From contig WGMV01000017.1 of assembly GCA_016124905.1 (NCBI GenBank), positions 1-41,934 of the forward strand: a stretch of 41,934 nucleotides of DNA, read 5' to 3'. Position numbers and translations under genes: made by a program. Positions within the stretch are counted from its first letter, which is position 1. Each line of letters starts with the position of its first letter. The notes below the pieces were generated by a model. That model did not search any database. It saw only the letters and a list, made by a program, of their open reading frames with translations, and was not told where the DNA came from. Source of the DNA: a bacterium. GTDB lineage: Bacteria; Pseudomonadota; Alphaproteobacteria; Rickettsiales; RI-342. Below are positions 7,110 through 22,176 of this stretch, in pieces.

Positions 7110-7140
7110 TTATGTATGATGCAAAGAGATGCGACAGAGC

Positions 7141-7515
7141 ATGGCACGTAAGGCAACATCGCGTGCCGCATCAAAGAAACCAGTCACAGTCACGATTGCC
7201 CCGGATGAGCGGGTCTGGTGGGTTTCACGCCTGAAGGGTGTGGTAGAGCGTTGCATGCAGGCAGAAACGGTGATGGACCGGAAAGGCGAATGGACGGGGC
7301 TTTATCAGTTTGACGCCTCCGCCGCCTTGAAGGGGCTGGAAATGCTCGGCAAGCATTACGGGCTGCTTCAGCCGGTTGCCGGAGGGGACGGTGCCCTGCT
7401 GGTTGAAGAAGACCGGCTGGACGATGAAATTGCGCGTTTGATAAAGGAATGTGGCTATGCCGTTGCAGGAGAAAGCACGGTTACGGGCATGCCTGCGGAA
7501 AAAATGGGAGCGTAA
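7141..7515 (+). CDS. Phage terminase small subunit
   Basis: This is the DNA-recognition subunit of the packaging motor. The 124-residue protein has a basic N-terminus (MARKATSRAASKKP) and the segment YQFDASAALKGLEMLGKHYGL, typical of small terminases of this type, where each terminase monomer has a conserved K/R-LLGKHxGL-like helix. Its place directly upstream of and overlapping the large subunit by 59 bases supports the call. Two in-frame starts exist: ATG 7129 touches its only purine-rich leader, so ATG 7141 is preferred. It is shorter than many small terminases, and the usual N-terminal helix-turn-helix is not obvious. Confidence 0.75.
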   Translation: MARKATSRAASKKPVTVTIAPDERVWWVSRLKGVVERCMQAETVMDRKGEWTGLYQFDASAALKGLEMLGKHYGLLQPVAGGDGALLVEEDRLDDEIARLIKECGYAVAGESTVTGMPAEKMGA

Positions 7516-8833
7516 GCATTACCGCAAGCTGGATGCTTACCGGCCTTACGCAAAGCAGATGAGGTTTCATGAAGCCGGTGCGGATAACCGGGAACGGCTG
7601 TTCATGGCCGGTAACCAGCTCGGGAAGACCTGGGCGGGCGGTTTTGAAACAGCCATGCATGCCACGGGGCTCTATCCGGACTGGTGGCAGGGCAGGCGAT
7701 TTGACCGGCCGACAACAGGCTGGGTGGCCGGGGTGACGATGGAAGCACTGCAGGGGAGCGCCATGCGTATTCTACTGGGGCGCGACGGCGATGTGGGCAG
7801 CGGGGCGGTGCCCAGGGATTCTCTGGTGGGTGATTTAGGCGGCTCTATGCTGCGGATTGCGCATGCATCGGGCGGCCAGTCGCTGATCGGGTTTAAAAGC
7901 TATAATCAGGGCCGTGAGAAATGGCAGGGCGAAACGCTGGATTGGGTATGGTTCGATGAAGAGCCGCCCCTGACCATTTATATGGAAGGATTGACGCGCA
8001 CCAACGCAGCGTTGGCACGGGGAGCCGGGCTGGTGTGGATGAGCTTTACACCGCTGCTTGGCATGAGTGACGTGGTGCGGCGCTTTCTGATGACGCAACC
8101 GGAAGGTACGCATGTGACCAGCATGACGATTGAGGATGCGGGGCATTATTCGCCGGAAGAGCGGGAGGCTATATTGGCCAGTTATCCAGCGCATGAGCGG
8201 CAGGTGAGGGCTTATGGCGTGCCGGGGCTTGGGAGTGGTCGGGTTTTTCCTGTAGAGGAACGGGATGTGGGAGTGGAAAGTTTTGCCATACCGGCGCACT
8301 GGGCGCGTATCGGCGGGCTGGATTTTGGCTGGGATCACCCCACCGCGGCCGTGCAACTGGCGTGGGACCGGGATGTGGACTGCATCTATGTGACCCATGC
8401 CTACCGCTTGCGGGAGGCAACACCCGTGATGCATGCGGCAACCTTGAAAGCCTGGGGAACCAGCCTGCCATGGGCATGGCCGCATGACGGGCTGCAACAC
8501 AGCAAGGACAGCGGCGAGCCGCTTGCCGCGCAATACCGGCGAAACGGTTTAAACATGCTGCCAGAGCGCGCAACATTCGAGGATGGTGGTGACGGTGTGG
8601 AAGCGGGGGTGCTTGAGATGCTGGAGCGGATGCAGACCGGCAGGCTCAAAGTGTTCTCGCATCTGGCGGACTGGTGGGAGGAGTTCAGGCTCTATCACCG
8701 CAAGGATGGGCGAATCGTGAAAGAGCGCGACGACCTTATCTGCGCCACGCGATATGCCATGATGATGCTGCGTTTTGCCGTTACCGGGCGGGCGGATGCG
8801 TTGTTGAAAACGGACACCAGCTGGGTTGTCTGA
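7457..8833 (+). CDS. Phage terminase large subunit
   Basis: This is the ATPase-nuclease that cuts and pumps DNA into the prohead. The 458-residue protein has Walker A FMAGNQLGKT near residue 48 and Walker B WVWFDEEPP near 170. The C-terminal RNase H-like nuclease starts at about 290 (GGLDFGWDHPTAAV, first acidic residue) and ends with a conserved acidic segment (KERDDLICATRYAMMML). ATG 7457 is chosen because AAGGA lies eight bases upstream; a GTG two codons earlier is the alternative. The gene is translationally coupled to the small subunit. Confidence 0.93.
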   Translation: MPLQEKARLRACLRKKWERKHYRKLDAYRPYAKQMRFHEAGADNRERLFMAGNQLGKTWAGGFETAMHATGLYPDWWQGRRFDRPTTGWVAGVTMEALQGSAMRILLGRDGDVGSGAVPRDSLVGDLGGSMLRIAHASGGQSLIGFKSYNQGREKWQGETLDWVWFDEEPPLTIYMEGLTRTNAALARGAGLVWMSFTPLLGMSDVVRRFLMTQPEGTHVTSMTIEDAGHYSPEEREAILASYPAHERQVRAYGVPGLGSGRVFPVEERDVGVESFAIPAHWARIGGLDFGWDHPTAAVQLAWDRDVDCIYVTHAYRLREATPVMHAATLKAWGTSLPWAWPHDGLQHSKDSGEPLAAQYRRNGLNMLPERATFEDGGDGVEAGVLEMLERMQTGRLKVFSHLADWWEEFRLYHRKDGRIVKERDDLICATRYAMMMLRFAVTGRADALLKTDTSWVV

Positions 8834-8856
8834 CCATTGATTATCAGGAGAGATGC

Positions 8857-10830
8857 ATGAATGACGACGAACTCGTCCATATCGTAACGCGCCATCTGGA
8901 TGCGGCGAAACAGTTTGCCGGGCAGTTGCAGGGTGAGCGTGAGCAGGTGCTGGATTATTTCCTGGGCAAGCCGCTCGGCAACGAAGTGGAGGGCAGAAGC
9001 AAGGTGGTGTCCACCGATGTGGCGGAAACCATCGACTGGTTGATGCCCAGCCTGATGCGCCAGTTCACCGGTGAGAAATCCATCGTGCAGTTTCACCCGG
9101 TTGGAGATGAGGATGTGGATAGCGCCCGGCAGGTGGGGGCTTATTGCCGCCATGTGTACCAGGTGCAGAATGACGGCTTTTTAAATACGCATAGCTGGAT
9201 TCAGGATGCGCTGCTGCACAAGAACGGTTACCTCAAGGTGTGGTGGGACGAGTCGGTGGAAGAGGAGCGCGAGGAATATAGCGGGCGTGAGGAAGACGAG
9301 GCGCTTCTGATTCTGTCGGACCCGGATATCCGCGTGCTGCGCCATGAATGCGTAGAGCAGGAGGATGGCCGCCTGTTGCATGACCTGGCGGTGATTCGCC
9401 GACATGATGCGAGCCAGATTCGGGTGCAGTCCCTGCCGCCGGAACATGTGCTGGTGCCGGCTGATTATCACGGTATCGGCCTGAATGAATGCCCGTTTGT
9501 GTGCCACCGGGAATACCGGACGGTGAGCGACCTGTTGATTGACGGGTATGACCGCGAAGCGGTGGAAGCCGCCGCCGAGGCGGATGGTGCGCAGGACGGC
9601 GTGACACGCGCGCGCAATCTGGAAGGGCAGACATCGCGAAGCGAGGATAAGGGCGACCCGTCCATGCGGCGCGTGTGGGTGTATGAATGTTACATCAAGG
9701 TGGATGTGAATGGCGACGGCATTGCCGAGCTTCGCCGCGTGCTGCTGGCGGGCGACAAGGCGCGTGCGCTGCTGGCCAATGATGTGGTGGATGCGGTGCC
9801 GATCATCTCGCTTACCGCGCTGCCGATGGCGCACCGGCATTATGGGCGCAGCATTGCTGAACTGGTGATGGAGCTGCAAAAGATCAAGACGGCGCTTTGG
9901 CGGCAGATGCTGGATTCGTTGTATCTTTCCAACAACCCGCGCGTGGTGGCGGATAAGCACCGGGTGAATTTGGATGACCTGATGACGGGGCGCATCGGCG
10001 GTATTGTGCGCGGCGACCCATCGGCGGTGACGATGCTCAATGTGCCCTTTGTCGGGCAGCAGGCATTGCCGGTGCTGGATTACCTTGACAGTGTGCGTGA
10101 GGAGCGAAGCGGCGTTTCCAAAACCATGCAGGGGCTGGACCCCGCCGCGCTGCGCGACCAGAGTATTTACGGCATGTCGGCCCTGATGGGAGCGGCGCAG
10201 CAGAAGATTGAGCTGATTGCCCGCGTGTTTGCCGAAACAGGCTTCAAGGAATTATTCCAGCGTATTTTTTCGCTGATTTCCAAATATGAAAGCTCGCAGC
10301 ACATGGTGGAGCTGAACGGCAGACGTGTGTTGATCGACCCGCGCGCATGGCGGAAAAAACGTGACCTGACCATCAGCATCGGACTTGGGAATGTGGCGCT
10401 GGATGAGCGGCGTCAGGCGCTGGAAGCGATTGCCGCCTGGCAGGAGAAGATTGTGCAGATCCAGGGCGGTGCAATGGGTGAAAATGCCATTCTGGTGGAT
10501 ATCGGGTCCATTCATAATACGCTTTCCGACCTGGTGGAATGTTATGGGCTGAAGCAGGCGGGGCGTTATTTCCGTGAGCCGCTGGCGCGATTGCAGGAAA
10601 TCGCACTTCAACAGCAGCTATATGCGGCACCTCCTCCTGCACCGGATGCAGCATTGCAGCTTGCGCAGGCCGATCTGGCCAGAAGGGCTCAGGAAGACCA
10701 GCGGCAGTTTGAACTGGATGTGCTGAAGCATCGCGATGAGATGCTGCTGGAGCGCGAGAAACTGCAGCTGCAGGCGGCGAAGCTTCAGGCCGCGCAACTT
10801 ATGAAAGAGGATGAGAGCGCGCATGGATGA
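8857..10830 (+). CDS. Phage portal protein (P22/podovirus type)
   Basis: The portal is the dodecameric ring through which DNA enters and leaves the capsid. The protein has 657 residues, close to podovirus portals, which are larger than the lambda type. Segments such as LWRQMLDSLYLSNNPRVV, near residue 345, and the preceding AHRHYGRSIAELVMELQKIK are typical of this family. The C-terminus is a long coiled coil rich in Gln, Glu and Lys, comparable with the portal barrel. The open frame extends 61 codons into terL, but GGAG six bases before ATG 8857 marks the real start. It overlaps the next gene by 8 bases. Confidence 0.9.
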   Translation: MNDDELVHIVTRHLDAAKQFAGQLQGEREQVLDYFLGKPLGNEVEGRSKVVSTDVAETIDWLMPSLMRQFTGEKSIVQFHPVGDEDVDSARQVGAYCRHVYQVQNDGFLNTHSWIQDALLHKNGYLKVWWDESVEEEREEYSGREEDEALLILSDPDIRVLRHECVEQEDGRLLHDLAVIRRHDASQIRVQSLPPEHVLVPADYHGIGLNECPFVCHREYRTVSDLLIDGYDREAVEAAAEADGAQDGVTRARNLEGQTSRSEDKGDPSMRRVWVYECYIKVDVNGDGIAELRRVLLAGDKARALLANDVVDAVPIISLTALPMAHRHYGRSIAELVMELQKIKTALWRQMLDSLYLSNNPRVVADKHRVNLDDLMTGRIGGIVRGDPSAVTMLNVPFVGQQALPVLDYLDSVREERSGVSKTMQGLDPAALRDQSIYGMSALMGAAQQKIELIARVFAETGFKELFQRIFSLISKYESSQHMVELNGRRVLIDPRAWRKKRDLTISIGLGNVALDERRQALEAIAAWQEKIVQIQGGAMGENAILVDIGSIHNTLSDLVECYGLKQAGRYFREPLARLQEIALQQQLYAAPPPAPDAALQLAQADLARRAQEDQRQFELDVLKHRDEMLLEREKLQLQAAKLQAAQLMKEDESAHG

Positions 10831-11095
10831 GCATCGGCTGCGCAGGGAGATTGCCAAGGGATATGAAGCGCAGTCTCTGCTTGAGCACCCACTGCTGGTG
10901 GATTGCTTCACCGGCTTGAAGAGGCGCTATCAGGATGTGTGGCTTGGCGCGCAGGAGGCTGAACAGCGGGAACAATGCTGGCATGACATGCAGGCGTTGC
11001 TGCGGCTGGAAGCGCAGCTTCAGGAATGGGTGATTTCAGCAGAGATGGCCGCACAACAACAGCAGGAAAGGGAAGCACGGAATGAGCGTGGATGA
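10823..11095 (+). CDS. Small phage protein between portal and scaffold, unknown function
   Basis: I do not recognise the family. The 90-residue protein is predicted to be all helical, with Leu and Gln-rich stretches (RLEAQLQEWVISAEMAAQQQ). It overlaps the portal gene by 8 bases and the scaffold gene by 14, which implies tight translational coupling in the head operon. ATG 10823 gives MDEHRLRREI; a second in-frame ATG at 10811 adds four residues. From position a role in head assembly is likely, but this is inference only. Confidence 0.65.
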   Translation: MDEHRLRREIAKGYEAQSLLEHPLLVDCFTGLKRRYQDVWLGAQEAEQREQCWHDMQALLRLEAQLQEWVISAEMAAQQQQEREARNERG

Positions 11096-11888
11096 CATGA
11101 AGGCAGATACGGAGAAACCGGCAGATGCCGAATTGACCATGGGTGAGGCGGCGCAGCAGATCTCTGACAAGCGCAGCCAGTCTGTTGATTCATCCGACCT
11201 TGTGGTGCGCGTGAAGCTGGATGGCGAGGAGCAGGCCGTGCCGGTGAATGAACTGGCCAAAGGCTATATGCGTCAGGCCGATTATACGAAAAAAACACAG
11301 GAACTGGCAGACAGCCGTAAAAGCCTGCAGCAGGAGCGCGATGAGATCGGCCAGTTGCGGGCGCGGGAACAGGAACGGCTTGCGGCACTTGATGCCCTGC
11401 TCGGGGATGACGGTAACGGGCTGCTTGAGGCGATGGGATTTTCATCCGATCAGCGTGCGGCGTGGCAGACGCATCGGCACCAGTTACACCAGGAAAGCGC
11501 GGCGAAAAAGCTGGATGGACTGAAGGAGCGGCTCCAGCAGGAGGCAAGGACATTGAAGGAAAAAATGCCGGAACTGGCCGATGCAGGCGCGCGTCAGGCT
11601 TTGGCAGGTTATCTGAAAACCCAAGGCTATAGCGGCGAGGAATTATCGAACCTTATCGATCATCGTGCGTTAATGGTGGCGGATAAGGCGCGACGCTATG
11701 ACGAGCTGATGGCCCGTAAAGAAACGGTGCTGAAACCACAGGCAAAAGCTGCAACCTTGCAGAAGGCGCAAGGTCAAGGGTCCGCGGATAGCGCACAGGC
11801 TGAATCGCGCAAGAAAGCATTTGAAAAGCTGCGGCAAAGCGGCAGCCTGAAGGATGCGGCAAGGCTGATCGAATCCCGTTACCGATAA
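11082..11888 (+). CDS. Probable phage scaffolding protein
   Basis: The scaffold guides coat protein into a prohead and is then lost. The 268-residue protein is acidic at the N-terminus and mostly helical. It carries VPVNELAKGYMRQADYTKKT, near residue 52, a segment common in scaffold proteins next to SU10-type capsid genes. A long Gln/Glu/Arg coiled coil follows (about 70-170) and a basic C-terminus (KDAARLIESRYR), the part that in known scaffolds contacts coat protein. It lies directly before the major capsid gene, as expected. No protease motif is seen. The start overlaps the previous gene by 14 bases behind an AGGAAAGGGAAG leader. Confidence 0.75.
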   Translation: MSVDDMKADTEKPADAELTMGEAAQQISDKRSQSVDSSDLVVRVKLDGEEQAVPVNELAKGYMRQADYTKKTQELADSRKSLQQERDEIGQLRAREQERLAALDALLGDDGNGLLEAMGFSSDQRAAWQTHRHQLHQESAAKKLDGLKERLQQEARTLKEKMPELADAGARQALAGYLKTQGYSGEELSNLIDHRALMVADKARRYDELMARKETVLKPQAKAATLQKAQGQGSADSAQAESRKKAFEKLRQSGSLKDAARLIESRYR

Positions 11889-11899
11889 TTTTTGCGGTC

Positions 11900-11913
11900 T
11901 TCACATTTGTGAA
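11900..11913. repeat. Short palindrome between scaffold and capsid genes
   Basis: TTCACA and TGTGAA face each other with two bases between. It lies 12 bases after the scaffold stop and upstream of the hairpin at 11930. It could be an operator or a weak RNA hairpin; nothing else supports a function. Confidence 0.3.
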
Positions 11914-11929
11914 CACACCGCACACACCG

Positions 11930-11960: not shown

Positions 11961-11984
11961 GCAACCCACATTCAAGGATCAAAC

Positions 11985-12932
11985 ATGACACAACCAACCG
12001 AAACTTTTGATAGTTATGATGCCAAGGGTAACCGTGAATCCCTGCTCGACACCATCTACAACATCTCTCCGATCGATACGCCTTTCATCAGCATGGTGGC
12101 GGATGTAAGCACCGCGCGTGCCGTGAAGCATGAATGGCAGACCGACGCTTTGGCCACCGTCAATGCCGGCAATGCCCAGCTTGAAGGTGATGATGCCAGC
12201 GGCAGCGCCATTACGGCGACGACCCGTCTGGACAATACCTGCCAGATCTCCAGCAAAACCGTTATCGTATCCGGCACGCAGGAGGCGGTGGAAAAGGCAG
12301 GCCGTTCCCTGGAGTCCGCCTATCAGGTGGCAAAGGCCGGTAACGAGCTGAAGCGCGACATGGAAGCCGTGCTGGTGCGCAACCAGACGAGCTTGGCGGG
12401 CAATGCCTCCACGGCGCGAAAGCTGCGTTCGCTGGAAGCATGGTTCACTACCAATACCAGCCGCGCTTCAGGCGGTGCCAACGGGTCTACCACCCAGGCC
12501 GCGACCGATGCGACGACCGGCGCGTTGCGCGACTTCACCGAAACGCTGCTGAAAGACATGGTCGAGAAAGTGTGGACCAGTGGCGGCCGTCCGGACATCC
12601 TGATGGTCGGCTCCAAGAACAAGCAGAAGGTTTCTGCCTTTACCGGCAACAGCACCCGCATGGATACGGGCGAGGACAAACGCCTGGTGGCCGCGATCGA
12701 TATTTATGAAAGCGATTTCGGCGCCATCAAGGTGGTGCCCAACCGCTTCCAGCGCGACCGCTCGGCCTTCATTCTTCAAAAAGACATGTGGGGCGTGGCT
12801 TATCTGCGACCCTTCGTGGAGAAACCGCTGGCAGATACGGGCGACCATGTGCGCAGCATGGTAATCGCCGAATATACGCTTGAAGCACGTAACGAGGCTT
12901 CCAGCGGCGTTGTGGCCGATCTGACCGCCTAA
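11985..12932 (+). CDS. Major capsid protein, SU10/DUF5309 type
   Basis: This is the main shell protein. The 315-residue sequence matches the SU10 major capsid family: N-terminal ESLLDTIYNISPIDTPF, then an ISSKTVIVSGTQEAVEKAG segment at about 90-108, a P domain and the C-terminal FVEKPLADTGDHVRSMVIAE. The family adopts the HK97 fold and is found in short-tailed phages. No separate prohead protease gene is present, and the scaffold carries no visible protease site. AAGGA lies six bases before the ATG. The gene is bracketed by two terminator-like hairpins (11930-11960 and 12941-12972). Confidence 0.92.
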   Translation: MTQPTETFDSYDAKGNRESLLDTIYNISPIDTPFISMVADVSTARAVKHEWQTDALATVNAGNAQLEGDDASGSAITATTRLDNTCQISSKTVIVSGTQEAVEKAGRSLESAYQVAKAGNELKRDMEAVLVRNQTSLAGNASTARKLRSLEAWFTTNTSRASGGANGSTTQAATDATTGALRDFTETLLKDMVEKVWTSGGRPDILMVGSKNKQKVSAFTGNSTRMDTGEDKRLVAAIDIYESDFGAIKVVPNRFQRDRSAFILQKDMWGVAYLRPFVEKPLADTGDHVRSMVIAEYTLEARNEASSGVVADLTA

Positions 12933-12940: not shown

Positions 12941-12972
12941 GCCGGTGCGGCAAGCCGCACCGGCTTTATTTT
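12941..12972 (+). terminator. Strong intrinsic terminator after the capsid gene
   Basis: A perfect ten-base-pair stem (GCCGGTGCGG with CCGCACCGGC) has a CAAG loop and is followed by TTTATTTT. It lies 8 bases after the capsid stop and 13 before the next start codon. Confidence 0.8.
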
Positions 12973-12985: not shown

Positions 12986-13282
12986 ATGCGTGGTTACCAA
13001 ACGCATTATAAACCCGATGTGACGCAGAAAGTGACCATTGGCGCGGCATCTGCCGCCATTACCAACGGCGTGGGCAATTACATCCAGGCAGTGCGCATTA
13101 TCAGCACGACGGATTGCTTCGTGAAAATCGGCAATTCGGGCGACAGCCCTTCGGCCACGGTCAATGACATGTTTGTTAAGGCCGGCGTGCCGGAGGTCTT
13201 TACCATCGCCCCTGGTGCCAAGGTGGCGTTTATCCAATCCAGCGCTGGCGGCGCCGGTTATGTTACCGAACTGACCCAGTAA
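12986..13282 (+). CDS. Small virion protein after the capsid gene, possible decoration protein
   Basis: I do not recognise a named family. The 98-residue protein is rich in beta-prone residues and small side chains (VTIGAASAAITNG, FTIAPGAKVAFIQSS), giving a compact beta-sandwich look. In phages with this capsid type a head decoration or stabilisation protein commonly follows the coat gene, and position is the main support here. AAGGAGA precedes the ATG. It is only one base apart from the next gene. It resembles in style, but not visibly in sequence, the 107-residue protein at 16613. Confidence 0.6.
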   Translation: MRGYQTHYKPDVTQKVTIGAASAAITNGVGNYIQAVRIISTTDCFVKIGNSGDSPSATVNDMFVKAGVPEVFTIAPGAKVAFIQSSAGGAGYVTELTQ

Positions 13283-13283: not shown

Positions 13284-13595
13284 ATGCGCCGTATCCTCGA
13301 TGCGCATAACGGGGTGGTGAGTGAGTTTCACTTTAACCCGGCGGAAGAGCGTTTTGCCATCCGCCATGTGCAGGATGTTGATCCGCTTCTGGAGCATAAT
13401 GCCAGGCTGAGGGCGGAAGGTACGGGATTTAGCGAAAGCCGTGAACTGCGCCGCGTGGCGAGCATTCCGCTGGTGCTTTATCACCGCTGGCTGAAGCAAG
13501 GCTTTGATGCGCTGCAACCGGATAATTTGCCTGAACTGAAGCGGCGGTTGCGCGGGGAATATGCCTATTTGCGAACCAGCGACGGCGGGTTTTGA
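13284..13595 (+). CDS. Small conserved-looking phage structural-module protein, unknown function
   Basis: The protein has 103 residues. The segment RVASIPLVLYHRWLKQGFD near residue 55 resembles short proteins found near head-tail connectors in several podovirus and cyanophage late operons, whose role is not known to me. It is charged and probably soluble. The stop lies ten bases before the next start and the GGAGG of the glycosyltransferase gene begins right after it. The family assignment is a loose recollection, so only the existence of the gene is well supported. Confidence 0.65.
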   Translation: MRRILDAHNGVVSEFHFNPAEERFAIRHVQDVDPLLEHNARLRAEGTGFSESRELRRVASIPLVLYHRWLKQGFDALQPDNLPELKRRLRGEYAYLRTSDGGF

Positions 13596-13605: not shown

Positions 13606-14283
13606 ATGGGGCGGCATATCAAGCTCGGCATCTGCATTCCCACGCGTGGGCAATGGGAGGCGGATTTCGGACAGTCGCTGGCGATGGCGGTACTGGCATT
13701 CGCTACCACCCTGCCGGAAGGGTTGCAGGCCAGCATCAAGCTTTTCAATCATCATGGCAGTATTTTGCCGACGCAGCGCACGGAGATGGTGAGAGAGGCG
13801 CTTGCCAGTGAGTGCACGCATGTGTTGTTTCTGGATGACGATATGGGGTTTCCCATGGAGACGATCATCCGTTTACTGGCGCATGACTTGCCGGTGGTGG
13901 CGGCCAATTGCGCCACCAAATGTCTGCCGCCGTTACCTACCGCGCGTTATGCGGATGGAAGCAGTTGTTATACGAGGCAAGGATCACAAGGGCTGGAGCC
14001 GGTCGCCGTTGTCGGCACAGGAATTTTGCTGGCGAAGGCGGATGTGTTTCGCGCCATCGCCGAGCCCTGGTTTACCATCGGCTGGAATGCCGAAACGGGC
14101 AGGTATACGGGTGAGGACTGGTTTTTCTGCCAGCGTTTGGCGGAGCACGGCATTCCCATTTATGTGGACCATGACGTGAGCCGAGAGGTGCGGCACTGCG
14201 GCAGGCTGGATTATGTGCACCCGATGATCCCGGCTTATTACGAGACAGCTAACACAGCAGGAGAGGCGCATGCCGATCATTGA
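13606..14283 (+). CDS. Phage-borne glycosyltransferase-like protein (GT-A fold)
   Basis: The 225-residue protein starts IKLGICIPTRGQWEADF, like the first strand of GT-A glycosyltransferases. It carries CTHVLFLDDDMGFP near residue 75, an aspartate run in the place of the metal and nucleotide-sugar binding DXD motif. A later EDWFFCQRLAEHGIPIYVD fits the usual acidic catalytic region of the family. Its role would be to transfer a sugar from a nucleotide sugar to an unknown acceptor, possibly virion or cell-surface. The start is fixed by GAAGGAGG six bases before ATG 13606; the open frame upstream is inside the preceding gene. It overlaps the adaptor gene by 14 bases, so it is part of the structural operon rather than a separate cassette. 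Confidence 0.78.
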   Translation: MGRHIKLGICIPTRGQWEADFGQSLAMAVLAFATTLPEGLQASIKLFNHHGSILPTQRTEMVREALASECTHVLFLDDDMGFPMETIIRLLAHDLPVVAANCATKCLPPLPTARYADGSSCYTRQGSQGLEPVAVVGTGILLAKADVFRAIAEPWFTIGWNAETGRYTGEDWFFCQRLAEHGIPIYVDHDVSREVRHCGRLDYVHPMIPAYYETANTAGEAHADH

Positions 14284-14893
14284 CAATTACACGAATTTGC
14301 TGACCGAGGTGGAAAGCGAATTTTCACGAAGCGATTTGAGCGGGCGGATTCCCCGTGCGGTTCAGGCAGCCGAAGCTCGTATGAACCGGGAATTGAGGCT
14401 GCTGGATATGGAAAGCCTGGCGAGCCTTACCACCACCCCGAATCAGGCGACGATCGACCTGCCGCAGGGCAGCCGCCATGTGCGGCAGGCATGGCTGGAT
14501 GGCAGCCCCGCACGGCTTGGGTTGGTGAGCCTGACGCAATTGGTGGAAACACAGATTGCCGGCTGCCATGGGCGGCCCATCATGATGGCCGTTGAGCGCG
14601 ATAAGCTGCGGCTGGCACCCGTGCCGGACGGCGAATATGACATTCAGCTGATTCATACGCTGGCCGTTACGCCATTGACCGAAGCGGCTCCTACCAACTG
14701 GCTGCTTGAGAAGCATCCGGACGCTTATTTGTACGGCACCTGTTCCGCCGTGGCGGCACAACTGCAGAACCCGGATGCGATGGCCTATTACGACAGCATG
14801 TTCAGCCGCGTGCTGGATGCGATGCGGCAGGAGGATGAGCTGCGCCGGGTGCCGAGTTCCTCGTTGGTGATACGTTCCGAGGGTAGGTGCTGA
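14270..14893 (+). CDS. Head-tail adaptor protein (SU10 adaptor-like)
   Basis: The adaptor ring joins portal and tail in short-tailed phages. The 207-residue protein begins with NYTNLLTEVESEFSRSDLSG and then has IPRAVQAAEARMNRELRLLD, the pattern of the SU10-type adaptor family (a first helix, then an acidic/arginine helix). The C-terminal half is helical. Its position just before the tail hub gene agrees. AGGAG lies six bases before the ATG, and the start overlaps the glycosyltransferase gene by 14 bases. Confidence 0.75.
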   Translation: MPIIDNYTNLLTEVESEFSRSDLSGRIPRAVQAAEARMNRELRLLDMESLASLTTTPNQATIDLPQGSRHVRQAWLDGSPARLGLVSLTQLVETQIAGCHGRPIMMAVERDKLRLAPVPDGEYDIQLIHTLAVTPLTEAAPTNWLLEKHPDAYLYGTCSAVAAQLQNPDAMAYYDSMFSRVLDAMRQEDELRRVPSSSLVIRSEGRC

Positions 14894-14894: not shown

Positions 14895-16346
14895 ATGATG
14901 CAGGATATTGCGTTTGGGCCGTGGCTGCCCGATATGCCGGGCTATGCCAATCCTGGGCTGGTGGAGGCCAAGAACCTTGTGCCGGAAATGAACGGTTATG
15001 CCCCCTGGTGTGAGCCGGTTGAGATTGGCGAGGCGTTGCCGGATGACTGTCTGGGAGCGGTGGCTCTGTATGATAGCGAAGGCAACCCGCATTTATTCGC
15101 CGGGACCGCGACCCGATTGTACAAACGGAATGCCGGTGCATGGCAGGATGTGACGCGGCCAGGCATGCCTTATAACCTAGGGACGGAGCAGGGCTGGCAG
15201 TTTGTGCAATATGGCGACCGCGTGCTGGCAGCGAACGGCGCCGACCCTGTTCAGAGTTTCCTCATCGGCACCGATGCTCATTTCGATGAGGTTGATGCGT
15301 ATGCGCCCGCGGCACAACATCTTGCCGTGATCAATAACTTTATCATGGCCGGGCATACAGCCGAGGCTGGTAATCTGGTGCAATGGAGCGGCCTTGATGC
15401 GCCTACAAGCTGGGAGAGGTCGGCTGCAACGCAGGCGGATTTCCAGCGACTTGAGAATGAAGGCGGTGCAGTGCAGGCGGTGATCGGCCACCAGAATTAC
15501 GGTATCATTCTGCAGGAATATGCCATTGTGCGTATGGAATATGTCGGCCCACCGGAAATTTTCACCTTCGCCGAGGTAGAGCGCCGCCGCGGAGCATTGA
15601 CGGGAAGCGCCGTGACCAATGTGGGGCAGGATATTTATTACCTTGCCGAGGACGGGTTCTACCGTTTTGACGGCGTGCGTTCCCTGCCGATAGGAGAGGG
15701 GCGGGTCAATCAATGGTTTTTCGATCTGATCGACCGGAATTACCTGCATCGCATTCAGGCATGCGCGGACCCTGTGCGGCCGCTGGTGATCTGGAGCTTT
15801 CCGGAGAAAGGACAAAACGGCCTCGCCAACCGGCTGCTGGTGTACCACACGCAGCAGGACCGGTGGAGCTGGATAGAACTGGAGAGCGAAACGCTGTTGC
15901 CCTTATTCGGCGACAGTTACCGTCTGGAAGATCTGGATGCGATTGCGGCCAGCCTTGAAACCCTGCCCTATCCGCTGGACAGCCGCGTGTGGCAGGGTAA
16001 GGACCGGCAGCTGGCATTTTTTACCACCAGTCACCGGCTTGCCAATTTCAATGGTGAAGCATTGCAGGCGACCTTGCTGACGGGGGATATTATCGCCGGA
16101 GAGCAGTCCTTTCTGCTGCAAGGTGTGATGCCGGCCGTAACGGGTGGGGATGTGAGTGTTCGCGTGGGCGGGCGGGCCTATGCGCGCGGGCCACTAGTAT
16201 TAGGCGGCGCTACGGCCATCAATAACTATGGGTGGTGTGACAGCCTGACACATGGGTGCAGTCATGCGGTGGAGCTTACCCTTTCAGGCGATTGGGAAAA
16301 GGCGACAGGTATGCGTGTAGGCCTCATACCTGCTGGCAAATATTAA
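14895..16346 (+). CDS. Tail hub/nozzle or DNA-stabilisation protein
   Basis: The 483-residue protein starts with IAFGPWLPDMPGYANPGLVEAKNLVP and goes on through repeated beta blades, including DIYYLAEDGFYRFDG near residue 250. This arrangement is that of the P22 gp10/SU10 nozzle group of beta-propeller tail proteins, which plug the portal vertex and carry the fibre. It follows the adaptor gene by one base, as in related phages. ATG 14895 and ATG 14898 are both possible; AGGTG lies before the first. No cysteine or enzyme motif stands out. Confidence 0.75.
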   Translation: MMQDIAFGPWLPDMPGYANPGLVEAKNLVPEMNGYAPWCEPVEIGEALPDDCLGAVALYDSEGNPHLFAGTATRLYKRNAGAWQDVTRPGMPYNLGTEQGWQFVQYGDRVLAANGADPVQSFLIGTDAHFDEVDAYAPAAQHLAVINNFIMAGHTAEAGNLVQWSGLDAPTSWERSAATQADFQRLENEGGAVQAVIGHQNYGIILQEYAIVRMEYVGPPEIFTFAEVERRRGALTGSAVTNVGQDIYYLAEDGFYRFDGVRSLPIGEGRVNQWFFDLIDRNYLHRIQACADPVRPLVIWSFPEKGQNGLANRLLVYHTQQDRWSWIELESETLLPLFGDSYRLEDLDAIAASLETLPYPLDSRVWQGKDRQLAFFTTSHRLANFNGEALQATLLTGDIIAGEQSFLLQGVMPAVTGGDVSVRVGGRAYARGPLVLGGATAINNYGWCDSLTHGCSHAVELTLSGDWEKATGMRVGLIPAGKY

Positions 16347-16406: not shown

Positions 16407-16562
16407 ATGAATATAAATCAAGCGGTTCAAGCCGTATCCGGCGTATTTAATGCATCTGATTTTAACCTTACACAACAGGCGCTTAGGGCGCAGCTGCAGA
16501 GTTTTGCAGAGCTGGTGAACAGTGTAGTGCGGCAGCCAGAGGCATCCGGCCGCACTGTTTAA
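16407..16562 (+). CDS. 51-residue phage protein, unknown
   Basis: A short helical protein (MNINQAVQAVSGVFNAS at the start) without a recognised family. GGGAGGC six bases before ATG 16407 is a clear ribosome binding site and decides this start over the in-frame upstream one at 16371. The AT-rich leader contains TTGTTT at 16352 and TTATGC 16 bases later, a weak promoter candidate. A strong terminator follows the stop, so this small gene may be its own transcript. Confidence 0.55.
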   Translation: MNINQAVQAVSGVFNASDFNLTQQALRAQLQSFAELVNSVVRQPEASGRTV

Positions 16563-16583
16563 TTTAACCTATTATTTAACAAA

Positions 16584-16612
16584 GGCTTGCCGCCAGACGG
16601 CAAGCCTTTTTT
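16584..16612 (+). terminator. Strong intrinsic terminator
   Basis: A perfect nine-base-pair stem (GGCTTGCCG with CGGCAAGCC), five-base loop CCAGA and six T. The next base is the A of an ATG start codon. Confidence 0.85.
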
Positions 16613-16936
16613 ATGGGCAAAACCATGCGAGCTCCATTAAACTCCCGCCTGGGAGAAGATTATGTGCGCGAACTGGCCGATGCGATCAATCGCATCAGTG
16701 CCGGAAAAATAAGAGCCGGGGGAGAGGTTTCTCTTCAGCCGGGCGCCACCAGCACGGTGGTTGCTGACCCGCGCTGCGGTACAAAAAGCGTTATCCTGTT
16801 AAGCCCCAGAAGTGCCAGCGCAGCCATAGCGACCCAAGCGGTTTATACCGCCATTGTCACCAACGGCGCTTTTACACTGGCGCATGACAGCCAGCCGGTG
16901 AATGACCGTTTGTTTGATTATGTGATTCTTGGTTAA
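16613..16936 (+). CDS. Small phage structural-module protein, 107 residues
   Basis: The N-terminal third is helical (LGEDYVRELADAINRISAGKI), and the rest is beta-rich with LQPGATSTVVADPRCGTKS and FTLAHDSQPVNDRLFDYVILG. Short proteins of this build occur beside tail genes in several podoviruses; I cannot name a function. The start is unusual: ATG 16613 directly follows the T-run of a strong terminator and has no Shine-Dalgarno sequence; ATG 16625, four codons on, has none either. Translation must depend on read-through RNA with a hairpin before the start codon. Confidence 0.6.
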   Translation: MGKTMRAPLNSRLGEDYVRELADAINRISAGKIRAGGEVSLQPGATSTVVADPRCGTKSVILLSPRSASAAIATQAVYTAIVTNGAFTLAHDSQPVNDRLFDYVILG

Positions 16937-16950
16937 CGCTACCTGCGTGG

Positions 16951-17002: not shown

Positions 17003-17761
17003 ATGCGTGCTTATGTAACCCGTTCGTTTGTTTCCCGCTTTGCCGCCGCTGCTCTTTGCATCGGCATGCTGAGTGCCTGTACGGACCGGGATGAGGCCGC
17101 AAAAGCAAAGCTGGCCGAAGCCAAGGTTCACATGGATACGGGGATTAAGGCGACGACCTATGCCGAGAAAGCTAAGGCATATGAGCAGGCCAACCTGCTG
17201 CTGGAAGATATCCAGAAACATTTTGCCAGCACGCCCACGGCGAAAGCGCTGGCGGAAGGCCAGGTGGTGGATGGCGTGAATCCGAAAGAAGTGGCCAACC
17301 AGTTGGCCATTGCCGCGCCGCGTGCCGTAAAGGAAGTGCAGAAGCAAGCGAACCTGCTGGATTTTGACCAGGAAAGCGCTGTGGTGAAAAGCTTCTTCGT
17401 TCAGGAAGGCGAATGCCATGACGAGCCGCAGCGGGTTCAATGCCTGGGCTATTCCACGCAAATTTCCGCCAAGGTTCTTGGAAATGGAAAGACGACTGAT
17501 GCGGTGGTGGTGGATATCAAAAAAGGTGGCGACAAGCCCAGCGAGACAGCGTTTGAAGGCGAGTTTCTAAAAGTTTACCGTATTGATGCGGCCAAGTTTG
17601 ACGCATTGATGAAAAGCATTTCCTCCGGCCTGGAAAGCAGCTTCATTCAAGACAGCCTGCGTATTTCCGGCGTAACGGCGCAGCCGGACCCCAAGCAGCC
17701 GATTTACCGTGTGGTGATTCGGTCGGAAGATGCCAAGACGGCCAAAGCGCCGACGGAATGA
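17003..17761 (+). CDS. Lipoprotein within the phage block (moron-like)
   Basis: The 252-residue protein has a basic N-terminus, a hydrophobic core and the lipobox IGMLSAC, so it should be lipid-anchored at Cys26. Residues 30-110 are charged helices that resemble TPR-like or coiled-coil packing; the rest is mixed, ending in a short tail of Lys/Ala. I do not recognise the family. Unlike its neighbours it has its own candidate promoter (16951-16978), AGGAG before the ATG, and a strong terminator right after (17784-17806). That is the layout of a moron, a gene expressed from a prophage for the benefit of the lysogen. A role in surface exclusion, fitness or lysis (spanin-like) is possible but not shown by the sequence. 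Confidence 0.7.
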   Translation: MRAYVTRSFVSRFAAAALCIGMLSACTDRDEAAKAKLAEAKVHMDTGIKATTYAEKAKAYEQANLLLEDIQKHFASTPTAKALAEGQVVDGVNPKEVANQLAIAAPRAVKEVQKQANLLDFDQESAVVKSFFVQEGECHDEPQRVQCLGYSTQISAKVLGNGKTTDAVVVDIKKGGDKPSETAFEGEFLKVYRIDAAKFDALMKSISSGLESSFIQDSLRISGVTAQPDPKQPIYRVVIRSEDAKTAKAPTE

Positions 17762-17783
17762 TGCGATTTACATAGATTTGAAA

Positions 17784-17806
17784 GGGCGCCTCCGGCGCCC
17801 TTTTTT
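17784..17806 (+). terminator. Strong intrinsic terminator after the lipoprotein gene
   Basis: A perfect seven-base-pair GC stem (GGGCGCC with GGCGCCC), three-base loop TCC, then six T, with three A upstream. It lies 22 bases after the lipoprotein stop. Confidence 0.88.
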
Positions 17807-17825
17807 ATTGCCCGAAAGCCAGCCC

Positions 17826-18260
17826 ATGCATTCGTGTTACCGCTTTACCGGTGTGCGCCAGGACGAGCTTGATCGCTGGTGGCCAGAGGTTGAGCCCTTA
17901 TTGCAGCGGACGTTCGCGCGGGCGGAGATATGCGAGCCCATGAAGGATGTGCTGGCGGCGCTCAGGCAGCGTGACGCGCAGTTATGGATTGAGCTGGATG
18001 GCGGGGAGCGTGTGACGGGAGCGGCCGTGACACGGTTGATCCGTTATCCGTCCAGCTTGCATGTGCAGGTGCAATATGGCGCAGGCTGCCTTCAACCACG
18101 GTGGTGCGGCTGGTTGAAATGCATTGAGGATTGGGGACGGCAGCATGGCTGTGACGCCGTTGACGTGATGGGGCGTAAAGGCTGGGAAAAGGTCTTTGCC
18201 GGGGTGGGATACAGCCATGCTTATTCAGTGATTAGAAAAACATTCACCAAGGAGGAATGA
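17826..18260 (+). CDS. Phage structural-module protein with possible GNAT fold
   Basis: The 144-residue protein ends GCDAVDVMGRKGWEKVFAGV followed by GYSHAYSVIRKTF. This matches the final alpha-beta part of GNAT-type acetyltransferases (residue region where a neutral Gly-Trp and the C-terminal strand sit) and resembles proteins in other podovirus late operons. I see no clear acetyl-CoA pyrophosphate loop (Q/RxxGxG/A), so enzymatic activity is doubtful. The open frame begins at 17730 inside the lipoprotein gene, but a terminator lies between, so ATG 17826 is chosen. The Shine-Dalgarno sequence there is weak. It touches the next gene. Confidence 0.6.
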   Translation: MHSCYRFTGVRQDELDRWWPEVEPLLQRTFARAEICEPMKDVLAALRQRDAQLWIELDGGERVTGAAVTRLIRYPSSLHVQVQYGAGCLQPRWCGWLKCIEDWGRQHGCDAVDVMGRKGWEKVFAGVGYSHAYSVIRKTFTKEE

Positions 18261-19216
18261 TGGTGCGGGTATGGACAAAACTGGTGCTGGATGCAGAGGG
18301 CAATTGGGTTGCCGATGCATGCCAGCATGAGGAGCATGAGGGAGATATTGCCGAATGCAAGGGAGCAACGGGCGGCACAACAACTGTGCAGCAGGCCGAC
18401 CCGTGGGTGGGGCAGCAGTCTTATCTGAAATACGGGTTTCAACAGGCGGCGCAGCTTTACAATAACAAGAATCTCTGGCCGCAATATTATTCGGGCAATA
18501 CGGTTGCGTCGCTGTCTCCTGATACACAGGCGGCCATTTATATGACACAGCAGCGCGCCATGAACGGAAGCCCCCTGCAAAGTGCTGCGCAAAACCAGAT
18601 GCTGCAAACCATTAGCGGTCAATATCTCAATCAGAATCCTTATCTTAACAAGGCTATTGATTCGGCCTTAAGCCCTGTGATGCGCCAATACAGGGATGCA
18701 GTGCTGCCTGGTGTTGATGCGCAATTTTCGCGCAGCGGACGTTATGGAAGCAACGCCTATGATACCAGCCGGGCGCGCAGTGAATCGGAGCTGGCAACGG
18801 CTCTTGGCAATATTGCCAATGATATGGCCTATCAGAATTACCGGGATGAACGGAATAACCAGAACGCAGCCACCTTGGCTGCGCCGGCTTTTGCCCAGGC
18901 CGATTACAATGATTCACAACGCCTGGCCGCGGCGGGTGCGATTCAGGATAACCAGGCGCAGGCCGTTCTGGACAGCAAGATGAACCAATATAACTACAAC
19001 GCCAACCTGCCGAAACAAATGCTGGCCGATTATATGGCGCTGATCCAGGGAAATTACGGCAGCAGCAGCAGCAGCGTGACAACGCCCAGCAAACCTAACC
19101 CGCTTGCGCAGGGTATCAACGGCGCACTGACGGGATTGTCCCTGGGGTCCATGATTCCTGGGATCGGTTCGGTGCTGGGTGCCGGCCTTGGTGGGTTGTT
19201 CGGTCTTGTAATGTAA
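18260..19216 (+). CDS. DNA ejection (pilot) protein
   Basis: The protein has about 318 residues. The central part is rich in Gln, Asn and Ala (YLNQNPYLNKAIDSALSPVM, FSRSGRYGSNAYDTSRA) and is of a type seen in ejection or tail proteins of short-tailed phages. The C-terminus is glycine-rich and hydrophobic (residues about 294-318, LGAGLGGLFGLVM at the end), suited to inserting in a membrane. Such proteins leave the head or tail and form a channel for DNA. Start choice: AAGGAGG ends one base before ATG 18257, four before ATG 18260 and seven before GTG 18263; ATG 18260 is a compromise. Confidence 0.7.
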   Translation: MVRVWTKLVLDAEGNWVADACQHEEHEGDIAECKGATGGTTTVQQADPWVGQQSYLKYGFQQAAQLYNNKNLWPQYYSGNTVASLSPDTQAAIYMTQQRAMNGSPLQSAAQNQMLQTISGQYLNQNPYLNKAIDSALSPVMRQYRDAVLPGVDAQFSRSGRYGSNAYDTSRARSESELATALGNIANDMAYQNYRDERNNQNAATLAAPAFAQADYNDSQRLAAAGAIQDNQAQAVLDSKMNQYNYNANLPKQMLADYMALIQGNYGSSSSSVTTPSKPNPLAQGINGALTGLSLGSMIPGIGSVLGAGLGGLFGLVM

Positions 19217-19233
19217 CAGTAAAGGAATCACAG

Positions 19234-20829
19234 ATGTCAGGAATCAAAGACTGGTCAAGCAATCCGGCCAATAATATCGCAGGGCCGCCCTATGGATGGC
19301 CGGAGGGCATGGCACCGAGCGCGGTGAATAACTGCGCGCGTCAGATGATGGCCGATATTCGCACCTGGTATGCCGATTCGCAATGGGTGAATCTGGGGCA
19401 TGAGCCGAGTTATCTGAGCGCGAACAGCTTTGCCCTGGCGGGAGATGTGACGGGTATTTATCATAAAGGCCGACGCGTGCGGCTGACGGATAACGGGGCC
19501 GACCTTTATGCCACTATTGCCGACAGTGGGTATGGCAGCCCCAATACAACGGTAACCGTTGATCTATCCAGCCTGACTTCAAACCTGACGGCGGTTGCGC
19601 TGGGTGCATTGAGCGCGCTGAACGCGAGCGTTCCGAGTAATATCGTCAACCGGGCGGCGGATGGTGCCGCCGGGCAGCCTGCCTATGCGTTTTATAACGA
19701 TGAGAACACGGGGATTTACCGCAGCGCAGCCGACCGTCTGGATGTGGCGACGGGCGGTGTTCAGCGCCTCAGCGTGTTGCAGGGGCTGGTGGTGGACGTG
19801 AATGAAGCCGACCCTGGAAATGGCAATGCCGTTATCAATGACGCCCGGATCAAATCATTGAATGGGGGGCCCCTGGCAGGGTTTCGCAATACCATCATCA
19901 ACGGGGCTTTTGACATATGGCAGCGGGGAACGAGTTTCGGCAGCAATGGATTCGTCGCCGACCGCTGGCAGTTTAATTATGGTTCCGGAGGGGCAGCCAC
20001 CGTATCACGCTCGGCATTTTCTCCGGGAGAAAGTGTGGGAGATGGCACCCAGCCGCTTTATTCGCTGCAATGGAACCAGACCACGGGTGGTACCGGCAAC
20101 TATCTTATGCAGCCTATCGAGAATGTGCGCCTGTTGAGCGGCCAGCAGGTGACGGTGTCGTTTTACGCGCGCACCGTGTCCGGCTCGATGACGCTGAGCT
20201 GTTTTTTGCGTCAATGTTTTGGTACCGGCGGGAGCCCATCTTCCAATAACGATTCCAGCACACAAACAGCAGGATTGACTACAAACTGGCAGCGATTTCG
20301 CCTTACCTGGACGCTGGATTCCATCAGCGGGAAAACCATGGGAAGCAATGCCAATGACTATCTGGGCTTGATCTTCAGCGGGCCTTCGGGTTCCACCTTT
20401 AACCTGCTGCTGTGGGGTGTGCAGCTTGAGAGAGGACCTTTTGCCACGCCGTTTGAAGGAAGGCAGATGGCAACCGAGCTAGGGCTTTGTCAGCGTTACT
20501 TCTGGAAAAGCTTTCGAGCCAGCGTGACCCCTGCGCAGAATACGGGCAGGGAAGGCGCAATCATGCTGACCGCCACCGGCACCACCACCAACCTTTCCGT
20601 ATGCGCCCAAGTGCGGCTGCCGGTGCCCATGCGGGCATTGCCTAGCATCACCACCTACAATCCCCAGGCCAGCAACGCCAACTGGCGGAATGTGGGCGCC
20701 GGAACCGACCTGGCCGTTATTGTGGATAGTAACAACCTGAGTGAGCAGAGCTTTGTGCTGTATAATAACGCAGCCTCTGTCGACAATGCGCTTTACAGCA
20801 TTCATGCCACGGCCAATGCGGAATATTAG
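19234..20829 (+). CDS. Tail fibre or tailspike protein
   Basis: This is the receptor-binding protein. The 531-residue sequence has the N-terminal virion-attachment region DWSSNPANNIAGPPYGWPEG with NNCARQMMADIRTWYAD. A spacer of short beta repeats follows (about 100-200), then NTIINGAFDIWQRGTSF near residue 225, the start of a widespread C-terminal carbohydrate-binding beta-sandwich (ADRWQFNYGSGGAATVSR). No endo-glycosidase motif is visible, so it may bind rather than cut. AAGGA precedes the ATG. The target would be a surface polysaccharide of the host or recipient cell. Confidence 0.85.
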   Translation: MSGIKDWSSNPANNIAGPPYGWPEGMAPSAVNNCARQMMADIRTWYADSQWVNLGHEPSYLSANSFALAGDVTGIYHKGRRVRLTDNGADLYATIADSGYGSPNTTVTVDLSSLTSNLTAVALGALSALNASVPSNIVNRAADGAAGQPAYAFYNDENTGIYRSAADRLDVATGGVQRLSVLQGLVVDVNEADPGNGNAVINDARIKSLNGGPLAGFRNTIINGAFDIWQRGTSFGSNGFVADRWQFNYGSGGAATVSRSAFSPGESVGDGTQPLYSLQWNQTTGGTGNYLMQPIENVRLLSGQQVTVSFYARTVSGSMTLSCFLRQCFGTGGSPSSNNDSSTQTAGLTTNWQRFRLTWTLDSISGKTMGSNANDYLGLIFSGPSGSTFNLLLWGVQLERGPFATPFEGRQMATELGLCQRYFWKSFRASVTPAQNTGREGAIMLTATGTTTNLSVCAQVRLPVPMRALPSITTYNPQASNANWRNVGAGTDLAVIVDSNNLSEQSFVLYNNAASVDNALYSIHATANAEY

Positions 20830-20838
20830 GAGGAAGTA

Positions 20839-20988
20839 ATGGAAATACAGACGGTGGAAACAGCCGGTGAAGGCCAGATACGGGTAAGCTGGCTGGATGG
20901 CGATGTGAGCTATGCGCCTTATCCGGGCGGTACGGAACATGCGCGCCTGGTGGATGAATGGGTGGCGGCGGGCGGCGTTATCCAATGA
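20839..20988 (+). CDS. 49-residue phage protein after the tail fibre
   Basis: A short open frame with AGGAGG (overlapping the tail fibre stop) five bases before ATG 20839. It reads MEIQTVETAGEGQIRVSW at the start and ends with ARLVDEWVAAGGVIQ, resembling small helper proteins that follow tail fibre genes. Its stop overlaps the next start by four bases (ATGA). No function is known. Confidence 0.6.
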   Translation: MEIQTVETAGEGQIRVSWLDGDVSYAPYPGGTEHARLVDEWVAAGGVIQ

Positions 20989-21305
20989 TGGGGGCACCCT
21001 TGAAGACCCAGCCTTACCGGCAGGGGTGGATATTGGATAAGCATATTCCGGTGGCGGTGGTGCTGACCATTCTGGTGCAAACGGGAAGTGTCATCTGGTG
21101 GGGGGCGCGGCTGGACAGCCATGTCTCCAACCATGAGGCACGTATTTCCCAGCTGGAAAAAACCTCTCAGGAGCGGCTGCTTATCTATGAGCGGATTGTC
21201 AGGCTGGAGGCACAGCAGGAAAGCACTTCCCGCCAGCTGGTGAGGCTGGAAGATACGCTTGGAAGGCTCGAGGGAAAGATTGATAGGTTGAAAGGCAGAT
21301 CATGA
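20985..21305 (+). CDS. Membrane-anchored coiled-coil protein of the lysis module
   Basis: The 106-residue protein has one membrane segment near residues 20-40 (HIPVAVVLTILVQTGSVIWW) and a long heptad-like coiled coil after it (RISQLEKTSQERLLIYERIV). This build is like holin-associated or XhlA-type proteins next to holin and lysozyme genes. The start at the ATGA overlap (ATG 20985, next ATG 20988) is favoured by coupling; an earlier in-frame start lies inside the preceding gene. It overlaps the holin gene by four bases. Confidence 0.65.
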   Translation: MMGAPLKTQPYRQGWILDKHIPVAVVLTILVQTGSVIWWGARLDSHVSNHEARISQLEKTSQERLLIYERIVRLEAQQESTSRQLVRLEDTLGRLEGKIDRLKGRS

Positions 21306-21754
21306 TCATTACGTTATTTGCCAGTTTGCTTGGCTTTATCGGCAGCGTGGTGCCGGAATGCTTCAAGATGTTTCAGGACAAGCGCGACCGTGCGCATGAG
21401 CTGGAAATTCTGAGGCTGCAGTTCGAGCAGCAGAAGCTGGGGCTGAGTCAACGCATGGAAGAGGTGCGGCTGCAGCTGGACAGTGAAGCGACAAAGGCTA
21501 TCTATGGTACCTACACGATTGGTGTGAAATGGGTGGATGCGTTGAATGGCACGGTGCGACCCATTCTGGCTTATGCGTTTTTTGCCCTGTATGCGGCCGT
21601 CAAGCTTTTGCAGTGGGTGCAGTTTCAAATAATTGTGGCGAGTGCGTTTGAAATGGCCGGGTTGCTCTGGAGCGCCGAAGATCAGGCTATTTTTGCCGCC
21701 ATTATCAGCTTTTATTTCGGCCACCGTGCCATGCAGCAGCGGGCCAAAGCGTGA
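21302..21754 (+). CDS. Holin, three-transmembrane GTA/phage type
   Basis: Holins puncture the inner membrane to let lysozyme out. The 150-residue protein has an N-terminal membrane segment (ITLFASLLGFIGSVV), a charged coiled coil at about 25-65, and two C-terminal membrane segments ending IISFYFGHRAMQQR. The motif FYFGxR at the end of the last helix is characteristic of the three-helix holin family, first described for gene transfer agent release. It starts at an ATGA overlap and ends overlapping the lysozyme start. Confidence 0.78.
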   Translation: MIITLFASLLGFIGSVVPECFKMFQDKRDRAHELEILRLQFEQQKLGLSQRMEEVRLQLDSEATKAIYGTYTIGVKWVDALNGTVRPILAYAFFALYAAVKLLQWVQFQIIVASAFEMAGLLWSAEDQAIFAAIISFYFGHRAMQQRAKA

Positions 21755-22176
21755 GCATGGATCTAACGGGTTTTATCAAGCGGCATGAAGGGTTTTCGGA
21801 TAGGCCGTATCTCTGCCCGGCGGGTTATACCACGATCGGCTGGGGACACCTTATAAGACGAGACGAGCATATCGACAGTCCGATATCGTCTGAAGATGCT
21901 GAGCGATTGCTGGCACAGGATATAGACCAGGCCCGGATGGCGGTGTTGAGGCTTGTTCAATGGCCGTTAAGCGACAACCAGCAGGGGGCGCTTGTCAGTT
22001 TTACGTTTAATCTCGGGGCTGGGGCGTTACAGCGCTCGACCCTGCGGCGCAAGCTGAACCGGGGGGAAGTTGCTGCCGTGCCGGATGAGCTGAGGCGCTG
22101 GGTATATGCCGGGGGGCGCAAGCTGCCCGGTCTGATGATTCGCCGGGAGGCGGAGGTGAGGCTTTTTATGGCCTGA
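21751..22176 (+). CDS. Endolysin, GH24 lysozyme (T4/P21 type)
   Basis: It cleaves peptidoglycan. The protein has 141 residues, or 139 if ATG 21757 is used instead of GTG 21751. The catalytic Glu is in KRHEGF (residue 12), and the Thr is in GYTTIGWGH (residue 27). At the usual Asp position there is Cys (PYLCPAG), a variant common in this family and known from T4 lysozyme D20C to be active. There is no signal peptide or signal-anchor, so export depends on the holin. It is the last gene of the block; the SRP RNA promoter begins 14 bases after its stop. Confidence 0.88.
   Translation: MSMDLTGFIKRHEGFSDRPYLCPAGYTTIGWGHLIRRDEHIDSPISSEDAERLLAQDIDQARMAVLRLVQWPLSDNQQGALVSFTFNLGAGALQRSTLRRKLNRGEVAAVPDELRRWVYAGGRKLPGLMIRREAEVRLFMA

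Follow-up and report, generated by a model that had tools for sequence, protein, structure and literature searches.

Does a compact set of phage genes lodged between housekeeping genes represent a gene transfer agent (GTA) that its host maintains, or what is left of a prophage? The question is raised by a locus in an alphaproteobacterium of the order Rickettsiales, on contig WGMV01000017.1 (41,934 nucleotides, all of which is the window analysed here), one of the 47 contigs of a 2.36 Mb draft genome that is 95% complete. Positions 7129-22176 hold 21 intact open reading frames (ORFs) in about 15 kb, all on the plus strand, as do all features below unless stated otherwise. A preliminary description had interpreted them as a candidate podovirus-type GTA. 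We find that the cluster is the predicted packaging, head, short-tail and lysis late module of an SU10-type podovirus, and that its small terminase has lost the part that would bind DNA; on balance, we lean towards the late half of a recently truncated prophage rather than a maintained GTA.

Pfam and PHROGs identify the packaging, capsid, tail and lysis genes, including an SU10-type portal (SU10_portal, 8857-10830; PF23899, 618.6 bits; its ORF is open from 8674), major capsid protein (SU10_MCP, 11985-12932; PF17236, 4.5e-98; 64% identity to the IMG/VR contig L032) and head-tail adaptor (SU10_adaptor, 14270-14893; PF24175, 2.3e-26). Neither collection detects a tape measure, tail tube or sheath gene in the cluster, hence a short tail is expected and the earlier assignment to podoviruses stands. 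The claim of 21 intact packaging, capsid, short-tail and lysis genes on one strand, none of them broken, was likewise borne out by the ORF check, the two family searches and the catalytic motifs examined: the Walker A/B motifs and nuclease aspartates of the large terminase (TerL) and the E-C-T motif of the lysozyme are all intact. Nineteen of the ORFs encode at least 94 amino acids (aa), while the two extra ones, of 51 aa (16407-16562) and 49 aa (20839-20988), are preceded by good ribosome sites; the gene caller was home-made, so that small genes and start positions are approximate. Clustering of the proteins into families (F-numbers), which also took in the proteins of 18 related loci (for the most part contigs from IMG/VR), showed that the widely recurring virion-module families F0-F10 and F12 are all present, i.e. 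the SU10-type core virion set is complete; the exceptions, F11 and F14, are minor families found in five and four loci, respectively. The cluster has none of the large genes that separate the ejection-type protein from the fibre in many relatives, and neither have loci L003 and L049. Protein lengths are normal compared to phage relatives except for a shorter scaffold (268 aa versus a median of 327 aa), a shorter g14 and a truncated small terminase; the capsid protein (315 aa versus 312-320 aa) is of the usual length and so gives no sign of a small head. What is present is a 15 kb late module only, not a complete phage genome with replication genes.

The first ORF (terS, 7129-7515, at most 128 aa), which the preliminary description had left unnoticed, encodes the N-terminally truncated small terminase (TerS). 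Its residues 17-105 align with residues 64-149 of the TerS of phage locus L133 (phmmer, 7.6e-11), and the same match is obtained with the TerS of L042, L120, L147 and L183. These five detectable phage homologues match Terminase_2 (PF03592), L147 falling marginally under the cut-off. In all five, about 60-78 residues precede the matched part, and the alignment shows that this whole block is gone from the cluster protein, which keeps the oligomerisation core and the C-terminus. In the AlphaFold model of the L133 protein the block comprises four helices, and Foldseek matches this model to the DNA-binding domains of SF6 G1P (2cmp, TMt 0.75; 4zc3, TMt 0.81) as well as to full-length SPP1-like TerS. 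The missing block is thus identified, by its modelled fold, as the DNA-binding domain, and the cluster TerS lacks the entire N-terminal DNA-binding domain that five of five homologues carry. The AlphaFold model of the truncated protein itself is of low confidence (mean pLDDT 54) and served solely to read off the succession of helices and strands. The ORF cannot be extended in the 5' direction, as an in-frame stop lies directly upstream; no frame of the upstream DNA shows a convincing match to the missing part, and the terS start has no clear Shine-Dalgarno sequence, whereas most other genes of the cluster have one.

Sherlock et al. proposed the loss of the TerS DNA-binding domain as a mark of GTA-type small terminases, RcGTA TerS being without it (PMC6854486), and the TerS of FpGTA is reported to have no obvious DNA-binding domain either (PMC12946183). 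The cluster TerS carries this proposed mark, although a deletion junction would look alike. That a short TerS is domain-less in general was considered and rejected: those phages whose TerL is closest (e.g. L116 and RHph_N3_2) have an unrelated small protein of the DUF5681 type, which is not homologous to the cluster TerS and offers no parallel to it. TerL itself (7457-8833, with an alternative GTG start at 7451) is of the headful type (Terminase_6N/6C, 2.3e-28 and 3.4e-25), being 55% identical to its counterpart in Rhizobium phage RHph_N3_2 and 46% identical over 91% to those of P22-like phages. P22-type terminases package DNA by headfuls.

The cluster lies, as had been stated, directly between housekeeping genes. 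It fits flush between a MAPEG gene (6487-6942, minus strand), which follows obg-proB, and the 4.5S RNA gene ffs (22221-22318; RF00169, 60.8 bits), which is followed by dnaX; only 45 bp separate the lysozyme stop from ffs. The ffs-dnaX order is kept across the order, and the MAPEG-to-ffs junction was not recovered from any relative, either as an empty or as an occupied site. We could reproduce the reported absence of an integrase, repressor or replication gene from 7129-22176 and of an attachment repeat, no convincing att-like direct repeats being found across the edges. Elsewhere in the genome the only tyrosine integrases are XerC/XerD-like proteins, and there is no match to a second portal or terminase. 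Late phage genes stand 45 bp from ffs, an integration-type site, with the early module absent, as is typical of a truncated prophage. Proviruses that share this pair of holin and lysozyme (L333-L342, 51-57% identity) mostly have the lysozyme as their last gene with host-type sequence next to it, which makes the right edge of the cluster look like a natural prophage end; ffs was not found beside the related lysis cassettes. The preliminary description had proposed looking for the cluster in related genomes, and the outcome lends no support to a conserved element: the portal occurs in one of the 263 genomes sampled in the order, and the family's one further genome, 81% complete, does not have the cluster. 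In a quick tree the capsid protein groups with the phage contigs L032 and L033 (98% SH-aLRT), and it is 44-48% identical to those of Pelagibacter phage HTVC106P, Sinorhizobium phage phiM5 and Bradyrhizobium prophage ppBeUSDA76-2 (OP596614).

We propose that an SU10-type temperate podovirus lost its early half (integration, lysogeny and replication), probably by one deletion reaching from the left attachment side into terS, while the right prophage edge, with the lysozyme beside ffs, would have been retained. The truncation of terS at the left edge, the in-frame stop upstream and the start without a clear Shine-Dalgarno sequence look like a deletion junction, and a single deletion ending inside terS accounts for everything seen; the recent deletion that had been mentioned as a caveat is still the simplest reading. 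If the operon is still expressed, packaging by TerL and the shortened TerS would begin without a pac (packaging) site, the heads would take up host DNA headful by headful, and short-tailed particles would be set free through the action of holin and lysozyme. Any particles made would probably be filled with the bacterium's own DNA, and the cluster would then act in a GTA-like manner by default, not having been selected as a GTA; the packaging mechanism inferred is identical for a GTA and a truncated prophage. Several observations weigh against a recent truncation. None of the 21 genes is broken, no early-gene debris and no att repeat are seen, a GTA, too, would be expected to lack just the DNA-binding portion of TerS, and the codon use of the cluster is near that of the host, so its residence need not be recent.

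A second, independent cluster of the same viral type bears on the question. The capsid search yielded about 20 loci in Bradyrhizobium, and in four strains a related cluster occupies one common chromosomal site (BTAi1, L258/L029/L259; OK095, L260/L009/L261; Tv2a-2, L262/L008/L263; SZCCT0449, L264/L019/L265). It is flanked by an Nramp-like transporter gene on one side and by genes for a CaiB-type CoA transferase, an acyl-CoA dehydrogenase-like and a flavin reductase-like protein on the other (named by reading of the sequences), the right flank being common to at least four further Bradyrhizobium genomes. The divergence of the capsid, terminase, portal and tail genes follows that of the flanking host genes, with ratios of nonsynonymous to synonymous substitution (dN/dS) mostly of 0.05-0.2, and the same-site cluster shows no recognisable phage early genes. 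Close homologues (at least 63% identity) are present in 19 of 147 species; a further copy is broken, and four more divergent ones are without these flanks in the stretches examined. In B. aeschynomenes (L025:10001-12281) the same-site cluster ends inside the capsid gene with the CaiB-type gene next to it, which is a secondary loss. The cluster seems to be inherited at one site, yet often lost or absent, a combination that fits a domesticated element, and it is a candidate domesticated podovirus. Low dN/dS is no proof of domestication, since active prophages show it too; ppBeUSDA76-2, a relative with recombination genes and 73% capsid identity, is a spontaneously produced prophage. Short-tailed particles containing DNA that maps evenly over the genome are produced by a strain of B. 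japonicum (PMC10127595). The Bradyrhizobium cluster may perhaps be a more interesting object than that of the window.

Two side observations concern these Bradyrhizobium loci. In L258/L029 and others the portal is encoded in two pieces of about 190 and 560 aa with variable inserts between them; each piece is under purifying selection, and the two are adjacent in ppBeUSDA76-2 (L307). Further variable ORFs between the virion genes share the motif [F]x[DE]RFGxW (18 of 872 ORFs versus 0.0 in shuffles; L008:4559-6172, L019:4398-5147, L260:15384-16229, L262:11068-12111 and 14 more), often along with RRLTR- and GLLGMIxDY-like motifs, while their N-terminal domains differ (M23 peptidase, 2.9e-13; SLT-like, nuclease-like and others). 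The motif was found neither in the phage relatives tested nor in the window. These ORFs resemble tagged, polymorphic toxins that serve as cargo of a particle of phage origin, accompanied by small membrane or secreted partner ORFs, for which the MuF toxins of temperate phages offer a comparison (PMC5576092).

A domesticated podovirus-type GTA, which the host would keep for DNA transfer and in which the loss of the TerS domain would be an adaptation to non-specific packaging, is a somewhat less likely alternative to the truncated prophage. In its favour are a virion and lysis set that is complete and unbroken yet has no early genes, a headful-type TerL, a TerS without the domain of all five homologues (as in RcGTA, PMC6854486, and as reported for FpGTA, PMC12946183) and a holin of the GTA_holin_3TM family, and the conserved SU10-type cluster of Bradyrhizobium, under purifying selection, sets an independent example. 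The TerS truncation, however, favours a GTA only modestly, because any element that lost its early genes and kept terL intact needs a deletion end near terS, and by a rough estimate about a third of such endpoints take just the DNA-binding part. The truncated gene is, moreover, the first one at the left edge and has no clear Shine-Dalgarno sequence, and the right edge resembles a natural prophage end. A site resembling the CtrA consensus (TTAA-N7-TTAA, 6952-6966) between MAPEG and the cluster is a weak lead: it is the single occurrence in the window versus 0.15 expected, but the motif is barely enriched genome-wide (35 sites versus 20 for the reversed control pattern). The capsid length is as in phages of 35-44 kb and the head may exceed the 15 kb cluster, unlike that of RcGTA. 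The cluster was not found in the relatives sampled, and the capsid sits with phage contigs. The earlier GTA proposal holds as far as the virion-only cluster and the domain-less TerS are concerned, whereas domestication is not supported, given the occurrence in one of 263 genomes and the grouping of the capsid; the premise of a long tail, which it had stated for the known alphaproteobacterial GTAs, does not extend to GTAs in general, as the Faecalibacterium agent FpGTA is described as most likely podovirus-like (PMC12946183). Somewhat more doubtful still is the broader proposition that the cluster is a maintained SU10-type GTA and, together with the Bradyrhizobium cluster, exemplifies short-tailed domesticated particles arising repeatedly in the Alphaproteobacteria.

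It is improbable that the cluster is a helper-dependent or split element, packaged or mobilised with replication and integration functions encoded elsewhere in the genome or by another phage. A 95% complete draft in 47 contigs leaves room for such functions and the genome does encode two large serine recombinases, but both have conjugative-looking rather than phage-like neighbours, no second portal or terminase is matched, and a truncated TerS would fail to recognise the element's own DNA. The recombinase genes (L331, G000:C2:77000-96999; L332, G000:C3:19000-38999) adjoin coupling-protein-like conjugation genes and belong to probable integrative elements. Very improbable is a killing particle, tailocin-like or loaded with protein instead of DNA: the related Bradyrhizobium clusters do hold interspersed toxin-like genes with shared tags and an orphan lipoprotein takes up the matching place between F9 and F10 in the window, but neither a toxin-like gene nor any of the tags occurs in the window, and the head, portal and terminase, which tailocins lose, are retained. 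An assembly or binning artefact, in which a phage contig was joined to bacterial flanks, is the least credible explanation, even for a draft of 47 contigs, as it needs two independent joins; the cluster is also near its flanks in codon use and in GC content at third codon positions (GC3, 0.65 versus 0.67), which makes a chimeric contig unlikely.

The remaining genes complete the module. Portal and capsid genes are separated by those for a small conserved packaging-region protein (F4, 10811-11095; phrog_8161, in 15 of 19 compared loci) and the scaffolding protein (11082-11888; phrog_3927, 3.3e-38). Between capsid and adaptor are the conserved virion-region proteins F8 (12986-13282; 12 loci) and F5 (13284-13595; phrog_3982, 15 loci) and a glycosyltransferase-like protein (F15, 13606-14283; phrog_1574, with a weak match to Anp1, PF03452, 1e-5, under the Pfam cut-off), which occurs in phage loci L043 and L051, too. 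The tail region encodes a structural protein that is a candidate nozzle (14895-16346; phrog_3287, 2.4e-75), the conserved proteins F9 (16613-16936; 10 loci) and F10 (17730-18260; 6 loci), a DNA ejection protein-like product (18257-19216; phrog_4287, 1.2e-17) and the tail fibre (19234-20829; phrog_4492, 1.3e-67). Between F9 and F10, where some cargo inserts of the Bradyrhizobium clusters also sit, lies the orphan lipoprotein (17003-17761; lipobox LSAC), which has no homologue in Pfam, PHROGs, NCBIfam, 130 other genomes of the order, phages or IMG/VR. The lysis cassette consists of a small protein with one transmembrane (TM) segment (20958-21305, likely start 20985; phrog_19911, 4.2e-10), the 3-TM holin (GTA_holin_3TM, 21302-21754; PF11351, 27.6 bits versus a cut-off of 24.8) and the endolysin, a phage lysozyme (21751-22176; PF00959, 8.3e-41). 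Strong intrinsic-terminator-like hairpins lie 3' of the capsid gene (12941-12964) and within the tail region (16577-16613, inverted repeat I15), hence full expression may require read-through, antitermination or internal promoters. Weak Rfam small RNA matches at 16455-16613 (GlmZ_SraJ, 29.5 bits; BjrC1505, 26.5 bits), under the gathering scores, probably reflect the hairpin located there.

As a GTA, the cluster would have a short tail and derive from a virus family for which we found no report of domestication, and its TerS would support the idea that a prophage becomes a GTA chiefly by losing pac recognition. As a freshly truncated prophage, it would be a snapshot of how such a change could begin, with one deletion taking both autonomy and packaging specificity. 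Either way, a virion-only cluster with a domain-less TerS provides a sequence criterion to tell GTA candidates from ordinary prophage remnants.

With the SU10-type (kuravirus-related) podoviruses HTVC106P, phiM5 and ppBeUSDA76-2 the cluster has the portal, capsid, adaptor, scaffold, tail and ejection-type proteins in common, but these are records of 37-44 kb, whereas the cluster is without the early half and its TerS is truncated. It resembles FpGTA (PMC12946183) in being podovirus-like, with a short structural operon, a TerS that has no obvious DNA-binding domain, lysis genes and no early genes; FpGTA, however, belongs to a Firmicute, is encoded at two loci, is near-ubiquitous in its genus and forms particles that carry host DNA, while the cluster comes from a single genome. 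RcGTA-type agents are similar in size (about 15 kb), in the single operon, in the TerS without a DNA-binding domain, in the absence of early genes and in the GTA-named holin family, but they are long-tailed, widely conserved in Alphaproteobacteria and host-regulated, in contrast to this SU10-type cluster of one genome. Unlike cryptic or truncated prophages, the cluster has neither broken genes nor debris; it shares with them a late module beside a host RNA gene, the lack of an early module and a phage-like phylogeny.

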